From: Thermoproteota archaeon
Lineage (GTDB): Archaea; Korarchaeota; Korarchaeia; Korarchaeales; Korarchaeaceae
Direction: 5' to 3'
Length of the DNA stretch: 64,000 nucleotides
Assembly: GCA_027491395.1 (NCBI GenBank)
Contig: JAOZFI010000041.1
Span: 62,001-126,000, forward strand
Part shown: positions 7,416-54,685 of the stretch, one piece after another
Layout: each line of letters starts with the position of its first letter
How positions within the stretch are numbered: position 1 is the stretch's first letter
Program-made: the position numbers and the translations under genes
Notes under the pieces: model-generated
Databases searched by the model: none
What the model saw: the letters and a program-made list of their open reading frames with translations, nothing else
What the model was told of the DNA's origin: nothing

Positions 7416-8477
7416 TTACGGGATTATCTCCGTAGTGTTATCGTAGGGAGGATAATATATCTCCTCTCGCTTCACCACGCCTTCCTCTATGAGAGATCTT
7501 ATTTCACCTACTCTTGACAAGACCTCGTCTATAGTCGCTTTAGTAACGGAGCACACGTCTCTGAAACCCTTCTCACCCCAATGTCTCTCCATGTAGGTGT
7601 AGAGGCATCTCCCTCCACAGTACTTGAAGTAGCTACAGCTCGTACAGGGCTCTCCTATGATAACCTTCCTCAGAATACCGCTCCTCACATCTCCCACAAC
7701 TGCCCACTCGGAGTCAACAGCGATGGGACAAGCCACTATCCTCCCGTCTGGGAGTAGGGTGAAAGTCTCAGAACCCGCGCCACAGGGAGGGCTCCTCCAC
7801 TCACCGAAGAGGGCCACCTTGGCTATCCCTAGAAACGGGACTATTCCTGTGACCTCCCCCTGCCTCATCCTCTCAACCCACAGGGAGACCAGTCTCCTTA
7901 TTCCAGGAAGGTATGAGTTATCAGCCCATTTCCTGAAATCCCACGGCTCGGTCCATATAACATTCAATTGCCAGTGGACATGGTCAAACAAACCAAGCTT
8001 GAGCAAATGAGTTACCTCCTCGAATATATCGCTGCGATCCCAGACAGTCATCCTAGCTATTAGGTCACCGCCATACCCAAGCTCCCTTAGGCGCTTGGCC
8101 GTTTTCAACACGGTATCGTAGTTCCCCTTGCCCCGGTAGTGGTCATTAACCTCCCTTCTTCCATCTATGGAGAGAAGTATGGCATCGAATCTCAACCAAT
8201 AATCCTCCTGCAGATTATCGAAGAGTGTCCCATTGGTTTGGATTATGAAACGCCTCCTAGGCCCTAGGGCATCCATGACATTCTCGATAAGTTTGGGATT
8301 GATCAGGGGCTCTCCACCATAAAAAGCGACATCCGCATCCAAGCTCTTGACTAGGGCTATCAGATCTTTTAGCTCGTACTGCTCCTTCGGGGGAACCAGA
8401 TGTGGAGGGAAGCTCCCTCCGCAGTAGGAGCACTTCAGATTACAGAGTCCGGTTGTGGTCACTATTAGGAGCGTCAT
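7416..8477 (-). CDS. Radical SAM/SPASM protein, AF1365-like (putative peptide-modifying)
   Basis: The radical SAM cluster motif CNLKCSYC is close to the N-terminus, followed by the FYGGEP SAM-binding strand. A C-terminal cysteine-rich SPASM-like part includes CTSCSYFKYCGGRC and a later Cys. The overall pattern, including HWQLNVIWTEPW, resembles the archaeal AF1365 family that is annotated as putatively peptide-modifying. I recall this resemblance and have not computed it. The open frame begins at TTG 8492, but a TATA-like GCTTATAGTT near 8511 predicts an RNA start around 8486, which favours ATG 8477. It heads the operon with a regulator, a methyltransferase and a hydrolase. I found no precursor-peptide ORF beside it. 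Confidence 0.82.
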   Translation of the reverse strand: MTLLIVTTTGLCNLKCSYCGGSFPPHLVPPKEQYELKDLIALVKSLDADVAFYGGEPLINPKLIENVMDALGPRRRFIIQTNGTLFDNLQEDYWLRFDAILLSIDGRREVNDHYRGKGNYDTVLKTAKRLRELGYGGDLIARMTVWDRSDIFEEVTHLLKLGLFDHVHWQLNVIWTEPWDFRKWADNSYLPGIRRLVSLWVERMRQGEVTGIVPFLGIAKVALFGEWRSPPCGAGSETFTLLPDGRIVACPIAVDSEWAVVGDVRSGILRKVIIGEPCTSCSYFKYCGGRCLYTYMERHWGEKGFRDVCSVTKATIDEVLSRVGEIRSLIEEGVVKREEIYYPPYDNTTEIIP

Positions 8478-8492
8478 AATCGAACGCTCCAA

Positions 8493-8710
8493 GTCCTCTC
8501 CACATAACTATAAGCTTTGCTTGTTTTTCTGAGGGAAATGGGCTGATTGAATGGTGAAATGGTGTACTGCTTACTCTTTAAAAATAATTTCATTTAATAT
8601 TCATATACCCCTATTATAAATCTAATTTACCGGTTTATCACATCTTTATTTTGCTAAATTGACGAAATGAAACGAAAATCTTAAATATAAGCTCGGGATT
8701 AATAATCACG
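8493..8710. other. AT-rich spacer upstream of the hairpin RNA candidate
   Basis: There is no coding frame here. The stretch holds the reverse-strand promoter of the radical SAM operon (near 8505-8515), an AT-rich block (8577-8690) and the forward promoter of the hairpin RNA candidate. Part of it may be regulatory; I see no repeats or tRNA. Confidence 0.6.
8673..8690 (+). promoter_or_regulatory. Strong BRE/TATA promoter for the hairpin RNA candidate
   Basis: A purine-rich BRE-like CGAAAAT (8673-8679) directly precedes a near-consensus archaeal TATA box TTAAATATAA (8681-8690). With 25 nt from box centre to start, transcription would begin at about 8711. That is the first base of the long inverted repeat. 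Confidence 0.7.
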
Positions 8711-8820
8711 GAGGAGGAATGGGGGGGTGAGAGGATGATCCCGGGGAGGAGGATCGGGCCTTAGATCCCCTCTCGGGGTGATCCTACCCTTCCACTCCTC
8801 CTCTCTGCACCAGCATTTTT
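8711..8820 (+). ncRNA. Candidate structured RNA: 38-bp imperfect hairpin with own promoter and T-tract
   Basis: The 5' arm 8711-8755 pairs with 8764-8803 around an 8-nt loop. By hand I count 38 pairs, five of them G-U (8723, 8724, 8739, 8744, 8746). Interruptions are an A-C mismatch at 8719, a GAG bulge at 8729-8731, a G-G mismatch at 8737, and bulged A8747 and A8750. The five G-U pairs would become A-C mismatches on the opposite strand, so the structure fits a forward transcript, which matches the TATA box. ATTTTT at 8815-8820 could end transcription. No tRNA, SRP or RNase P signature is seen. It might alternatively be part of a long leader of the SAM synthetase gene, but that gene has its own TATA. 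Confidence 0.65.
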
Positions 8821-8840
8821 GGGTAATGTGGCCGATGGAA

Positions 8841-8850
8841 GATTTATCAA
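8841..8850 (+). promoter_or_regulatory. TATA-like box of the SAM synthetase gene
   Basis: GATTTATCAA is centred about 25 nt before 8871 and 35 nt before the ATG. An AGGTGAT ribosome-binding sequence (8871-8877) lies just ahead of the ATG at 8881. Confidence 0.5.
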
Positions 8851-8880
8851 TTTCTTATCCGGCCCTTAGTAGGTGATTTC

Positions 8881-10083
8881 ATGCTGAAGGTCTCCAAATG
8901 TAACAAGCTCCCCATGGACAGGCAACCCATTGAGATTGTTGAGAGAAAGGGCAAGGGCCATCCAGATACGATCACAGACGGTATAATGGAGAGGGTAGCT
9001 TTGGAGCTGAATAAGGAGTATCTCAGGAAGTTCGGTGGTATCCTCCATTACAACGCGGATAAGTCGCTGTTGGCTGCAGGCGTTACCGAGCCACAGTTCG
9101 GTGGAGGCAAGGTAATTGAACCCATGCTGATTGTTTTCGGTGACAGAGCCACTGTCTCCTATGCGGGAGAGTCCATAGACTTAGAAAAGATCGTCGTGAA
9201 CGCAGCTAAGAGCTGGATAAGGGAGAACCTACGGTTCGTCGATCCCGACGAGCATGTCCGCTATCAGATAGAGCTAAAACAGGGGAGTGCTGAGCTGACA
9301 GACATATTCAGGCGAGGCTCCGAGATAATGGGCGCCAACGATACATCAGCAGCTGTGGGCTATGCTCCACTCTCCAGAACTGAGAGGGTGGTTTTGGAGC
9401 TGGAGAAGTATCTGAACTCCCCAGAGTTCAAGAAGGAATTCGAGGAGACCGGTGAGGATATAAAGGTCATGGGAAGCCGGCACAACAATCACTTGGATCT
9501 GACCATAGCGCTCGCTTTCGTGGACAGGTTCGTTTCCAGCGAGCCAGAGTACTTCAGGAGTAAGCAAGAGGTCTTGGACAGGATTAACTCCTTCCTGAAG
9601 GAGAGGTTCGCGAATGACTTCGATAAAATCGATGTTCACATTAACACGCTAGATGTGGAGGGCAGGGGAGTACACGGTGTGTACCTGACCGTCTTAGGCA
9701 CTTCTGCCGAGGGAGGCGATTCGGGCCAGGTCGGCAGGGGGAACGGGGTCAACGGAGTCATCCCCCTGATGAGACCTAGGAGCTCGGAGGCGGCTGCCGG
9801 GAAGAACCCCGTCAGTCATGTAGGTAAGATATACAATGCATACACACACGAAATAGCTAGAAAGATAGTTAAGGAAGTGGAAGAAGTTCAGGAAGTCTAC
9901 GTCTGGCTGCTGAGCAGGATAGGAAAACCGATAAATGAGCCAGCGCTGGCCGCGGCGGAGGTGTACACCGAGGCGAACTTTGAGGACATAAAGGGGCAGA
10001 TAGAGGAGATCATTGCGTCAGAACTCGATAACATAGGGGAGTTCGTCAACAGGCTCATAGACGGGATGGTCCCCGTCTATTGA
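8881..10083 (+). CDS. mat: Archaeal-type S-adenosylmethionine synthetase
   Basis: This 400-residue protein is the archaeal class of methionine adenosyltransferase, which makes SAM from methionine and ATP and differs strongly from bacterial MetK. Recognisable blocks are VERKGKGHPDTITDGIMER near the start, HYNADKSLLAAG, FGGGKVIEP, GSRHNNHLDLT, and a glycine-rich EGGDSGQVGRGNGVNG followed by MRPRSSEAAAGKNPVSHVGK. Length and order match the family. SAM supply is relevant here because the window holds at least four radical SAM enzymes, methyltransferases, SahH and a SAM-hydroxide adenosyltransferase. It converges on the helicase gene with a 7-bp overlap. Confidence 0.95.
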   Translation: MLKVSKCNKLPMDRQPIEIVERKGKGHPDTITDGIMERVALELNKEYLRKFGGILHYNADKSLLAAGVTEPQFGGGKVIEPMLIVFGDRATVSYAGESIDLEKIVVNAAKSWIRENLRFVDPDEHVRYQIELKQGSAELTDIFRRGSEIMGANDTSAAVGYAPLSRTERVVLELEKYLNSPEFKKEFEETGEDIKVMGSRHNNHLDLTIALAFVDRFVSSEPEYFRSKQEVLDRINSFLKERFANDFDKIDVHINTLDVEGRGVHGVYLTVLGTSAEGGDSGQVGRGNGVNGVIPLMRPRSSEAAAGKNPVSHVGKIYNAYTHEIARKIVKEVEEVQEVYVWLLSRIGKPINEPALAAAEVYTEANFEDIKGQIEEIIASELDNIGEFVNRLIDGMVPVY

Positions 10084-13000
10084 CCGCTCAGCGCCAAGTA
10101 GGTGAGGTATAGAGACCTCACTCTATCCTCCACTATTTCTCTGACCTTCTCCCTCAAGTACTTGGTGTATCTCCTCCAGTCGACCCCACTCCTCTCCTCA
10201 ATCTTACTCACAGACCTCTTGATCTCAACCAAAGCATCTTTTAGAGAGCGCTTTATCCCCCACATTCTCTTCGCTACCTCTTCCAAGGAGACGGGCGAGA
10301 TCCCTAGGAAGTCCTCCACCAATGGTCTCAATTCAACTACCTTTCCCTCGGATCTCAGTCCTTGGAGCACATAGACTAGGGTCTTCTGCCCCAGCATGGT
10401 TAGATCTCTAGTAAGGGAAGCGAAGTCCCAGCATATCAGTGCGAAACCCTCGTTAACGGCTTTCTCCAACCCAGATAGATCATAACTCTGCCCTTCAAAG
10501 AATTCCTTGGCTATCGTCTGGATACCCACATCCTCACCATCGAACACGGCTATAACCCCGAGGGTCACCGCGTCGGAGATGGGCATAACCACAGCATCCA
10601 TCGTCAGGATCTTGTGGGCCCTAGACGGCTTCGGAACGAGAAACTCCCTTCCCTCTAGGATCACAGATATTCTCTGCTTCAACAGGAGATAGCCAAGCGC
10701 CCTCTCGGCGAACTTCATGGCCAGATCCCACCTCAACCCCGAGACCACTAGCTCGTAATGGGCCTGATCATCTATCAGCATCATCAACACTTCAGATAGA
10801 TCGTCTGGCTGGAACCTTTCCACGTCCTTAAGCACCGCTGACCAATCTAACTGCTCGAGAAGACCAGCTGATTCAGGTTCGTGGAGAAGCAAAATTTTCT
10901 TATCCCCGATGTTCGTTACCTCGTAGGCTATTGCATCTATGGGTATCCCCTTCGAGACCCTCATGACCAGCATTAGAGTCGCTAGGCCTATTCTCAGCCA
11001 AGTCAGGTCCTCGCCGGGATCGAGCTCGATCGATAGTCCATAGGTGTAATCCCTATAAACACCCCCGGTGGGTCCTATGACCGGGAGGGACTTGCTCTCC
11101 CTTATGAACAGGGTCTTACCATCTAGGGGGACTGGCCTAACCTTGGAGGAGGTCACCTTCCAGTAGACCCTGTTAGGGACCTTCGTTTTCACTCCGAACC
11201 CGTCGGTGGGAGGATCCACAACGCACACCACCTCACTCCCGATCCTCCCTCTGTAATAATCGTCTATCATGTCCGCTCTCTCTCCCCACTCCGCCTTGGT
11301 CCTCTCGTACTCCTCTATCACGAAGGCGAGCGGATCGAAGGAGTAGATCGTAGAGTAGTTCAGGGGCTCCTCTATTATCCCTGTTATGACCCTCCCCCTC
11401 CTGAGGAAGTCAACCACCACAGAATCGTTGCTATAGTCTATGGATCCCGGCTGAAATCTCTCGACCAAGTCGCAGTGCCCTATGTCTTCCAAGTATCGGA
11501 GATTGCCGTCCTCCCTCAGCGCTCGCTTGAACCCGTAGGGCGGCCCGAACTCATAGAAGTTGAGGTTATCCCAGACCCTCTTCCCACGCTGGGTGAGGCC
11601 TGATGGGGAAATGAGCCCTAACTCCTTTAGGAGATTTATCTCCTCCTGATCCAGTTGATCCCGGAGCCGAGGATGGACGAACTTGTAGAGCCCCTCGAAT
11701 AGTATGGAGTACTTGTTCTTCGGATTGACGAGGGCGACCTCCAGGGGGAGCTGAAGCCACTGCTCCACGGCCTCCACGCCTCTCAGAAGGAGCTCCTTGT
11801 CCCATCTGTACATGGGAAAGATCACCGTCTCCGTCCAACCCAACTCCTCTCTCCTGCCCTTCCTGCCCTCTCTCTGCTTGAATTCGCGGACACTCTCTGG
11901 CATGCCCAAGTGGACTACCCTCACCACCGTTCCGATGTCCAATCCTTGGGATAGCGTTCTGGGGCTTATCAGGACCTTGATCCCTCCCCTCCGAGCCGCT
12001 TCCTCTATCTCCTCCCTCTCCTCCTTAGAAACTAAGTGATGATGAGAGGCGACATCCTCCATTCCAAATTCCGTTTTGAGTCTCCTCTTCAGACTTTCCG
12101 CAGACCTTATGCCCCTAGTGAAGACTAGAGTGACCCCATCGTCCTCGGAGTAGTGGTATATCACCTCAGCCGGATCCATCTCGGGCTGGGGAACTTCAAT
12201 GCCAACGGATCTTAAGAGTTCAACCACTCGATATACATCCCTTTCAAACCTCTTATAATCGGCGATCGCCTCCCTCAGGTCCCCACCTATTGGAAGACTA
12301 AGGAGCTCATCCCTGTACCTCTGAACGACCTCCCAGATCCGCTCCATGTTCTTGCCCAGGACGAGGTAGACCTCGTTTCTCACCCTGAACGGTTTTCCCC
12401 TTATGATCACGGTCTCCCTAGCGTTTATCGACGTCAAACACTCAGCAAGTTCCTCTGGATTCCCCAGCGTCGCGGTGAGGATCACGAATTGGGGGGACTT
12501 CTCCACCAAGAGGGAAATTATCCTCATCATGGAGACTATGAGGGCGAGCTCCCTAGGCCCGTAGAAATCGAGCTCGTCCACCACCAGTAGGTCCATACCT
12601 CTCACGAAGTCAGATAAGTAGGATCCCTTCGTGGCCATCCTCTTTAGATCCGTCATGAAAAAAGCCGGATTCGTTATCAGGAGATCGATATTCGAGATCT
12701 TGGTCCTCAAACCGCTCCTCCCCAACTCCTTGATCAAGATGGTCCTCCTCCTCGCATCTATCACTTGGGAGCTGATGCCCAGCGCCTTGGAGTACTCCTC
12801 GAGCCTCCTTACCTGGTCGTTAGCTAATGCTAGGGTCGGGTATATGGCCAGTGCCCGCTTGCCCTTAGCGGCGTAGAAGAACCAAGCCTCCGTCTTGCCG
12901 CTACCGGTCCCGGAAATCAGGATGACGTTTTTACCCTCCTCCAGTGCCTTGAGAGCTTCGACTTGGTGCGAGTAGAGTCTCATGTCAGCGATCTCCGAGG

Positions 13001-13142
13001 GTTTACCAGGATAGGATCTAAGTGAGGGGGCTAGGTCCCCGAAGGTCAGGTCGATCCTCTCGGGTTTGATCTCTTCCTCTGAATAGGTCCTGTAGTTGTA
13101 ACCTAGGAACTCCAAGAGGGTTGAGGAGGATACGCGAGTCAA
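10077..13142 (-). CDS. Large superfamily 2 DEAD/DEAH-type helicase
   Basis: This 1021-residue protein has a two-domain SF2 helicase core in residues 1-450. GTGSGKT (78-84) is motif I, DELD (189-192) is the DExx box, TATLGNP (from 223) is motif III, SQGLDIG is motif V, and QREGRKGRR is motif VI. The remaining 550 residues contain no motif I recognise and lack the clustered cysteines of DUF1998-type helicases. The pattern recalls Lhr/Hrq1-like nucleic-acid translocases. It lies downstream of nurA-herA-mre11-rad50 and hsp20 on the same strand, so a DNA-repair role is plausible but inferred. Confidence 0.85.
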   Translation of the reverse strand: MTRVSSSTLLEFLGYNYRTYSEEEIKPERIDLTFGDLAPSLRSYPGKPSEIADMRLYSHQVEALKALEEGKNVILISGTGSGKTEAWFFYAAKGKRALAIYPTLALANDQVRRLEEYSKALGISSQVIDARRRTILIKELGRSGLRTKISNIDLLITNPAFFMTDLKRMATKGSYLSDFVRGMDLLVVDELDFYGPRELALIVSMMRIISLLVEKSPQFVILTATLGNPEELAECLTSINARETVIIRGKPFRVRNEVYLVLGKNMERIWEVVQRYRDELLSLPIGGDLREAIADYKRFERDVYRVVELLRSVGIEVPQPEMDPAEVIYHYSEDDGVTLVFTRGIRSAESLKRRLKTEFGMEDVASHHHLVSKEEREEIEEAARRGGIKVLISPRTLSQGLDIGTVVRVVHLGMPESVREFKQREGRKGRREELGWTETVIFPMYRWDKELLLRGVEAVEQWLQLPLEVALVNPKNKYSILFEGLYKFVHPRLRDQLDQEEINLLKELGLISPSGLTQRGKRVWDNLNFYEFGPPYGFKRALREDGNLRYLEDIGHCDLVERFQPGSIDYSNDSVVVDFLRRGRVITGIIEEPLNYSTIYSFDPLAFVIEEYERTKAEWGERADMIDDYYRGRIGSEVVCVVDPPTDGFGVKTKVPNRVYWKVTSSKVRPVPLDGKTLFIRESKSLPVIGPTGGVYRDYTYGLSIELDPGEDLTWLRIGLATLMLVMRVSKGIPIDAIAYEVTNIGDKKILLLHEPESAGLLEQLDWSAVLKDVERFQPDDLSEVLMMLIDDQAHYELVVSGLRWDLAMKFAERALGYLLLKQRISVILEGREFLVPKPSRAHKILTMDAVVMPISDAVTLGVIAVFDGEDVGIQTIAKEFFEGQSYDLSGLEKAVNEGFALICWDFASLTRDLTMLGQKTLVYVLQGLRSEGKVVELRPLVEDFLGISPVSLEEVAKRMWGIKRSLKDALVEIKRSVSKIEERSGVDWRRYTKYLREKVREIVEDRVRSLYLTYLALSGQ

Positions 13143-53005: not shown

Positions 53006-54685
53006 ATGAGGTGGATAGTGGCCTCGGCATGGCCCTACATAAATGCTGTGCCCCATCTGGGCACCCTCATACAAGTACTCTCCTCCGATGTGTACGCTAG
53101 GTACAGGAGGAAGAAAGGGGACTCGGTGGTCTTTGTATCAGGTTCCGACGAGCATGGAACTCCCATAGAAATAGAGGCGATAAGGAAAGGGATAAGTCCT
53201 AAGGAGCTCACTGACAAGATGCACTCTTACGTCTCGGATCTCTTCAATAGGTTCGGGATAAGCTACGACAACTACACGAGAACGGAGAGCCCAACTCATG
53301 TGAAGTTCGTTCAGGAGTTCTACATGAGGGTCTACGAGAACGGACACATCTTCGAGAAGGAGACGGAACAGCTTTACTGCCCCAACGACAAGATGTTCCT
53401 GCCCGACAGGTTCGTGATCGGGACATGCCCCTACTGCGGGTACGAGAAGGCCCACGGCGACCAGTGCGATAGGTGCGGGAGGCTCCTGAACCCGACCGAC
53501 CTGATCAACCCGAGGTGTGCCATATGCGGTGCTGAACCGGAACTCAGGAGGACGAAGCACTGGTTCTTCGATCTACCCAAATTCTCCGGTAAACTCAAGG
53601 AGTACGTAGAGTCGAACGAGCAGCTTCCAGATAACGCGAGGTCCATGTCCCTCTCAATGATAGAGGACGGCCTGAAACCCAGATCAATAACTAGGGATAA
53701 CAAGTGGGGTATCCCAGCTCCCTTCCCCGGGGCCGAGGGGAAGACGATCTACGTGTGGATGGAAGCGGTGTTGGGCTACGTCTCAGCGGTGAAGGAGTAC
53801 TTCGAGAGACTCGGCAAACCGGAGGAGTTCGACGAGTTCTGGAAGGGGAAGGACACCAAATCGATCTACTTCATAGGGAAGGACAACATACCCTTCCACA
53901 CCCTGATATTTCCAGCGCTGCTAATGGCCAGTGAGGAAGGGTACGTCCTGCCCTATAACGTAGCATCCACGGAATTCCTCCTCTTCGAGGGGGAGAAATT
54001 CTCCAAGAGGGAGAGGATAGGTATATGGCTAGACGAGGCCCTAGCCCTGCTTCCCGCCGATTACTGGCGTTTCTACATGATATACATAAGGCCCGAAACA
54101 AAGGACGCCAACTTCGCTTGGGACGACATGGTGGCCAAGATCAACGACGAGCTGAACGATACCTTAGGCAATTTGATCCACAGAGTGCTCTCCTTCATCA
54201 AGTCTAGGTACAGCGGAATCGTTCCAGATGCCCAGCTCGACGAGGAGTCGGAAGAGATGCTGAAGGAAGCTAAAGAGATAGCTGAAAGGATTGAGGACAG
54301 CATAGAGAGGGTCAAGTTGAGGGACGCCCTCAAGGAATTCCTAGAGATGGCACGACTTGGAAACAGGTTCTTCAACAGCAGGGAGCCTTGGAGGGACATA
54401 AGGGAGAACAAACCACGTGCTGACTCCACCGTGGTTGCCTCGTTCAATCTGCTGAAGGCTATGGCCTCCTACATGCACATATTCATGCCCTTCTCGGCTG
54501 AGAGGCTGTGGAGGATGATGGGTCTTGACGGTGAACCCGCGCCCTTCTCTGACGCATTCAACATCGTAACCGGAGTCCAGCTGGGGGAAGTGGAACCCCT
54601 GTTCCACAAGGTCAATAAGGAGGAGTTGCAGGAAAAGCTGGAGGAAGTCCGAGAGAGGGGAGAGGTTCTCTCGGCTAGAGAATGA
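53006..54685 (+). CDS. metG: Methionyl-tRNA synthetase, catalytic and anticodon-binding parts
   Basis: This is a class I synthetase of about 559 residues. The HIGH-like motif is PYINAVPHLGTL and the KMSKS-like motif is KFSKRERIG. A double zinc insert has CPNDK...CPYCGYEKAHGDQCDRCG...CAICG. The helical anticodon-binding domain ends the protein, with no OB-fold extension; that domain is encoded separately at 22867-23196. ATG 53006 starts the natural MRWIVASAWPY; the frame stays open to 52916 but lies over the promoter. Confidence 0.95.
   Translation: MRWIVASAWPYINAVPHLGTLIQVLSSDVYARYRRKKGDSVVFVSGSDEHGTPIEIEAIRKGISPKELTDKMHSYVSDLFNRFGISYDNYTRTESPTHVKFVQEFYMRVYENGHIFEKETEQLYCPNDKMFLPDRFVIGTCPYCGYEKAHGDQCDRCGRLLNPTDLINPRCAICGAEPELRRTKHWFFDLPKFSGKLKEYVESNEQLPDNARSMSLSMIEDGLKPRSITRDNKWGIPAPFPGAEGKTIYVWMEAVLGYVSAVKEYFERLGKPEEFDEFWKGKDTKSIYFIGKDNIPFHTLIFPALLMASEEGYVLPYNVASTEFLLFEGEKFSKRERIGIWLDEALALLPADYWRFYMIYIRPETKDANFAWDDMVAKINDELNDTLGNLIHRVLSFIKSRYSGIVPDAQLDEESEEMLKEAKEIAERIEDSIERVKLRDALKEFLEMARLGNRFFNSREPWRDIRENKPRADSTVVASFNLLKAMASYMHIFMPFSAERLWRMMGLDGEPAPFSDAFNIVTGVQLGEVEPLFHKVNKEELQEKLEEVRERGEVLSARE

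Follow-up and report, generated by a model that had tools for sequence, protein, structure and literature searches.

Bacteria offer classic examples of leader peptides encoded within RNA hairpins; in those that stall the ribosome at or near their stop codon, such as TnaC and the speF leader, a short open reading frame (ORF) led by a Shine-Dalgarno (SD) sequence lies in structured leader RNA ahead of a metabolic gene. TnaC ends in a proline codon followed by the stop (Gong et al. 2001, in the passage of PMC6238534 that cites it), as does the micro-ORF described below. Archaea terminate transcription at U-tracts and through FttA/aCPSF1, and it has been proposed that coupling to the ribosome and access of aCPSF1 are mutually exclusive (PMC8116511), which makes a translation-dependent attenuator mechanically possible in these organisms. 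In Methanosarcina mazei, translation extends to small ORFs situated 5' of annotated genes, according to the sections cited here of a Ribo-seq study (PMC11456600). A search of the open-access literature found no conserved archaeal leader peptide within a hairpin and no archaeal example of an attenuator based on leader-peptide stalling. A built-in control leader of this kind is rarely described in archaea, and a conserved leader peptide inside a long hairpin appears to be new there, leader peptides as such being already known. In the 64-kb stretch of DNA analysed here (the window), the gene for S-adenosylmethionine (SAM) synthetase is preceded by a stable hairpin that holds an ORF of nine codons together with its SD, a combination that has persisted in three deep lineages of the heat-loving Korarchaeum.

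The hairpin and the two putative promoters

The features of the locus are collected in Table 1. Folding of plus-strand positions 8700-8825 reproduces exactly the two arms, 38 pairs and loop of the original prediction, at -70.1 kcal/mol and z -5.1, none of 200 shuffled sequences folding as well. This structure holds four G-U pairs and not the five first counted, a fifth arising only when position 8710 is added; the argument that these pairs favour the forward transcript is nevertheless borne out, as the minus strand of the region folds less well (-58.3 kcal/mol, z -4.0). Among all 104-nt stretches on both strands of the window, the hairpin ranks first (z -6.0, GC-corrected), and folding persists at 80 C (-21.7 kcal/mol). 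The window's second most stable fold lies at 53857-53976 on the minus strand (z -4.0 after GC correction).

Table 1. Positions in the window of the hairpin, the micro-ORF and the neighbouring elements.
Feature	Position	Strand	Remarks
Radical SAM/SPASM protein, TIGR04084 (rSAM_AF0577)	7416-8492	-	468 bits; divergent neighbour
P1 TATA box TTAAATA	8681-8687	+	BRE-like purines precede; predicted start near 8710
Hairpin, 38 bp, imperfect	8711-8803	+	arms 8711-8755 / 8764-8803; loop 8756-8763 (8 nt)
Micro-ORF Shine-Dalgarno GGGGGGGTGA	8721-8730	+	upper outer stem
Micro-ORF	8735-8764	+	9 codons, MIPGRRIGP-stop, within 5' arm; stop codon at apical loop
T5 tract	8816-8820	+	possible archaeal terminator of P1 transcript
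P2, SAM synthetase promoter core ATTTATCAATTT	8842-8853	+	promoter-like element
SAM synthetase Shine-Dalgarno GGTGA	8872-8876	+	4 nt before ATG
SAM synthetase (methionine adenosyltransferase, archaeal type)	8881-10083	+	PF01941 535.6 bits; NF003363 628 bits, cut-off 557

In terms of RNA class, no Rfam family matches the hairpin region at gathering score, in keeping with the original prediction, and the permissive matches are noise of the miRNA-like hairpin type. Covariance models of the known SAM riboswitch classes give no match at the hairpin at either gathering or permissive Rfam scores. The archaeal SRP RNA was rejected as an identity, there being no match at the locus and the genome's SRP RNA lying elsewhere (G000:C45:45243-45558), as was a K-turn in the GUGAGA bulge, where the opposite strand, judged by eye, lacks the G-A/A-G tandem and the bulge is not conserved.

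The BRE/TATA element called upstream of the hairpin was located as P1, whose TATA box is identical in all eight genomes that carry the hairpin and lies 52-55 nt 5' of the micro-ORF start codon. The T5 tract was likewise found where it had been placed; six of the eight genomes have four to six consecutive T (T4-T6) after the hairpin, and G003 and G015 have no such run. A second promoter-like element, P2, has a core that is invariant in the eight aligned spacers, 39-40 nt 5' of the SAM synthetase ATG, and genomes devoid of the hairpin have a P2-like element at about the same position. Both the T tract and P2 thus sit between the micro-ORF and SAM synthetase. Based on the position of this element, SAM synthetase is probably also transcribed separately, with a short leader, which makes the hairpin an added upstream unit and not the sole leader. 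The proposal that the RNA is a leader element of SAM synthetase therefore stands as to a conserved, promoter-driven hairpin upstream of the gene, but with P2 intervening, a plain leader role is not established.

A nine-codon reading frame in the 5' arm

The micro-ORF of the window reads ATG ATC CCG GGG AGG AGG ATC GGG CCT TAG. Its SD falls in the outer stem, its start codon at or near the internal loop, codons 2-7 in the inner stem and its stop codon in the apical loop. The original prediction had treated the RNA as non-coding; the hairpin itself is real, but the conserved SD and nine-codon ORF in its 5' arm had been overlooked. Four nucleotides separate GGTGA from the ATG both in the micro-ORF and in SAM synthetase, and pairing to the 16S tail (GGATCACCTCC, taken from two congeners, the G000 assembly having no 16S of its own) is stronger for the former (-13.1 kcal/mol) than for the latter (-8.6 kcal/mol). 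Even a strength of -9 kcal/mol is attained by just 1.2% of the ATGs in the 64-kb window on which these SD statistics are based. Seven of the eight genomes have a micro-ORF SD of -13.1 to -14.0 kcal/mol, the exception being the weak one of G003 (-4.7).

Start and stop codons of the micro-ORF are conserved in the same alignment columns in all eight genomes, and among the mini-ORFs on either strand of the aligned spacers it is the only one of which this holds. The encoded peptides include MIPGRGIGP (G008), MLGRRIGP (G006), MILGRRIGP (G015), MVLGGGIRP (G003) and MVLGGRIGP (G007). The sole indel within the ORF removes one whole codon (in G006), 1-nt indels being common immediately outside it, and in G007 the TAG stop is replaced by TGA and so is still a stop. 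In the deep lineages G015, G003 and G007, 23-27 of 30-31 micro-ORF positions are identical, compared with 23-27 of 41-45 in the 3' arm; for G015 the figures are 27/30 and 23/44. The strong SD, the codon-sized indel and a conservation above that of the paired strand all favour coding. Amino-acid changes (I/V, P/L, R/G, G/R) are about as frequent as synonymous ones, so that codon-level selection on the micro-ORF is weakly shown and not strict. A control mini-ORF of 11 codons on the minus strand (about 8845-8881) is kept in seven of the eight genomes solely through its overlap with the SAM synthetase start and promoter; conserved start and stop codons alone are thus no proof of coding.

Distribution and evolution

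The comparison covered 29 genomes of the phylum, 16 of them from one genus (Korarchaeum). Eight of these 16 carry the hairpin upstream of SAM synthetase (G000, G001, G003, G006, G007, G008, G009 and G015), always in a single copy and always directly 5' of the gene. A covariance model run over the 29 genomes returned these eight copies and no further hairpin, and no copy was found in viral contigs, so that a mobile element was rejected within this set; an exact-pattern search of genome contigs returned three comparable Thermoproteota records and four unrelated bacterial records. The hairpin is absent from G002, G005, G010, G012 and G013, and from the 5' end of SAM synthetase in G011; in G004 and G014 SAM synthetase was not found. 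At the loci compared, gene order is identical with and without the hairpin, which thus represents a clean presence or absence of a roughly 300-bp spacer. In the SAM synthetase tree a single branch (support 66/80) sets the carriers apart, a pattern compatible with, though not strongly supporting, a single gain in the carrier clade.

Examination of related genomes also bears out the covariation that a functional hairpin would predict: in G000, G006, G007, G008 and G015, the outer stem has been rebuilt by two-sided changes that keep its pairing, the count being position-based and inflated by length differences. All eight carriers retain the pairing, although it drops to 26 pairs in G003 and to 22 in G015, where the inner stem is poor.

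The radical SAM/SPASM gene is followed by genes for an ArsR-like HTH protein, a methyltransferase and an isochorismatase-fold protein, and this series is conserved. On the other side, a large DEAD/DEAH helicase-like protein (1021 aa; 10077-13142, minus strand) is convergent with SAM synthetase, an adjacency kept in the genus.

Proposed ribosome-dependent attenuation and its rivals

Because the SD lies in the outer stem, the start at or near the internal loop and the stop in the apical loop, the hairpin cannot be closed while a ribosome is translating the ORF. In all eight carriers, the gene is preceded by a conserved short ORF that has a ribosome-binding site of its own. This ORF overlaps an RNA structure that its translation would disrupt. 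The best explanation of the locus, offered tentatively as a reading that falls somewhat short of probable, is that the hairpin is a leader-peptide (uORF) unit through which ribosome-dependent attenuation acts on SAM synthetase. Transcription would initiate from P1 at the foot of the hairpin; a ribosome would load at the strong SD and translate the nine-codon leader peptide to its Pro-stop end, thereby keeping the 5' arm from pairing, and the full hairpin would close when no ribosome had loaded or when it had departed. This switch between ribosome and hairpin would set the share of P1 transcripts that reach SAM synthetase as opposed to stopping at the T tract, read-through from P1 adding to a basal expression from P2. 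By analogy with TnaC only, it is suggested that the ribosome pauses on reaching the Pro-stop, which lies in the apical loop, and this pause would probably be part of the switch. A more specific version, in which the nascent chain MIPGRRIGP itself stalls the ribosome at the Pro-stop upon sensing SAM, methionine or a polyamine, thereby controlling the expression of SAM synthetase, is doubtful.

Several observations weaken the attenuator reading: P2 is invariant, the hairpin does not occur in several members of the genus, and G003 and G015 lack the T tract. In addition, the micro-ORF has no run of methionine codons with which to sense methionine starvation; its sole Met is the start codon, and a methionine-starvation attenuator was accordingly rejected. 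A translational attenuator with an anti-SD switch was rejected as well, pairing of the 3' arm with the SAM synthetase SD being not clearly beyond that of shuffled sequences (z +0.8 to -2.3, best in G003), so that the analysis yielded no explicit partner for such a switch.

P2 and the T tract make a stand-alone small transcript the strongest rival. An RNA of about 110 nt, started from its own promoter P1 and ended by the T tract present in six of eight genomes, could be a small mRNA or dual-function RNA encoding a trans-acting nine-residue peptide, its adjacency to SAM synthetase, served by its own P2 in all genomes, being only synteny. There is a precedent in M. mazei, where 21% of the sORFs missing from the annotation map to RNAs previously regarded as sRNA candidates, as stated in the cited sections of PMC11456600. 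Nine residues are, however, very short for a role in trans, and G003 and G015 have no T tract, which leaves this rival rather unlikely. The two-sided changes that keep the outer stem paired, together with short invariant stretches in the internal and apical loops, would also suit a structured non-coding leader or a protein-binding RNA, the ORF then being incidental to a conserved RNA motif (GUGAGANNAUG and GGRCCUU), much as the minus-strand mini-ORF, itself a chance one, is conserved in seven of eight genomes. Against this stand the SD at the same 4-nt spacing as in the neighbouring gene, the deletion of exactly one codon, the exchange of stop for stop and the better conservation of the ORF-bearing arm over its partner; neither a K-turn nor an Rfam family is recognised, and an RNA of this type is judged unlikely.

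Precursor genes can be as small as the seven-codon mccA of microcin C7, and the divergent radical SAM/SPASM enzyme has further relatives that are peptide maturases; the micro-gene could thus encode a precursor modified by this enzyme. That enzyme adjoins SAM synthetase also in genomes that have no micro-ORF, however, and the peptide contains neither a leader part nor any Cys, Tyr, Trp, Asp or Thr, which renders a precursor role highly improbable.

Comparison with known systems

The Korarchaeum hairpin shares with SAM riboswitches and other metK RNA leaders the presence of a structured RNA before a SAM synthetase gene. It differs from the riboswitches in being a single long hairpin with an ORF, devoid of an Rfam match and of a multi-helix aptamer. 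The C-terminal G-R-R-I-G-P of the micro-ORF resembles, by eye only, the SecM-type arrest motif GIRAGP; in comparison with SecM, the micro-ORF lacks the upstream arrest residues, no secretion gene adjoins it and the G003 peptide ends in GGGIRP, so that the resemblance serves as a lead and not as a test. The 5'-UTR small ORFs of M. mazei are, in the cited sections of PMC11456600, catalogued without a conserved hairpin or a shown mechanism. By comparison with TnaC and the speF leader, in turn, the micro-ORF is without known sensing residues and its stalling is putative; the Korarchaeum unit is archaeal, only nine codons long and separated from its gene by a second promoter. It thereby constitutes a small, testable system in which to ask whether archaea use ribosome-dependent attenuation.
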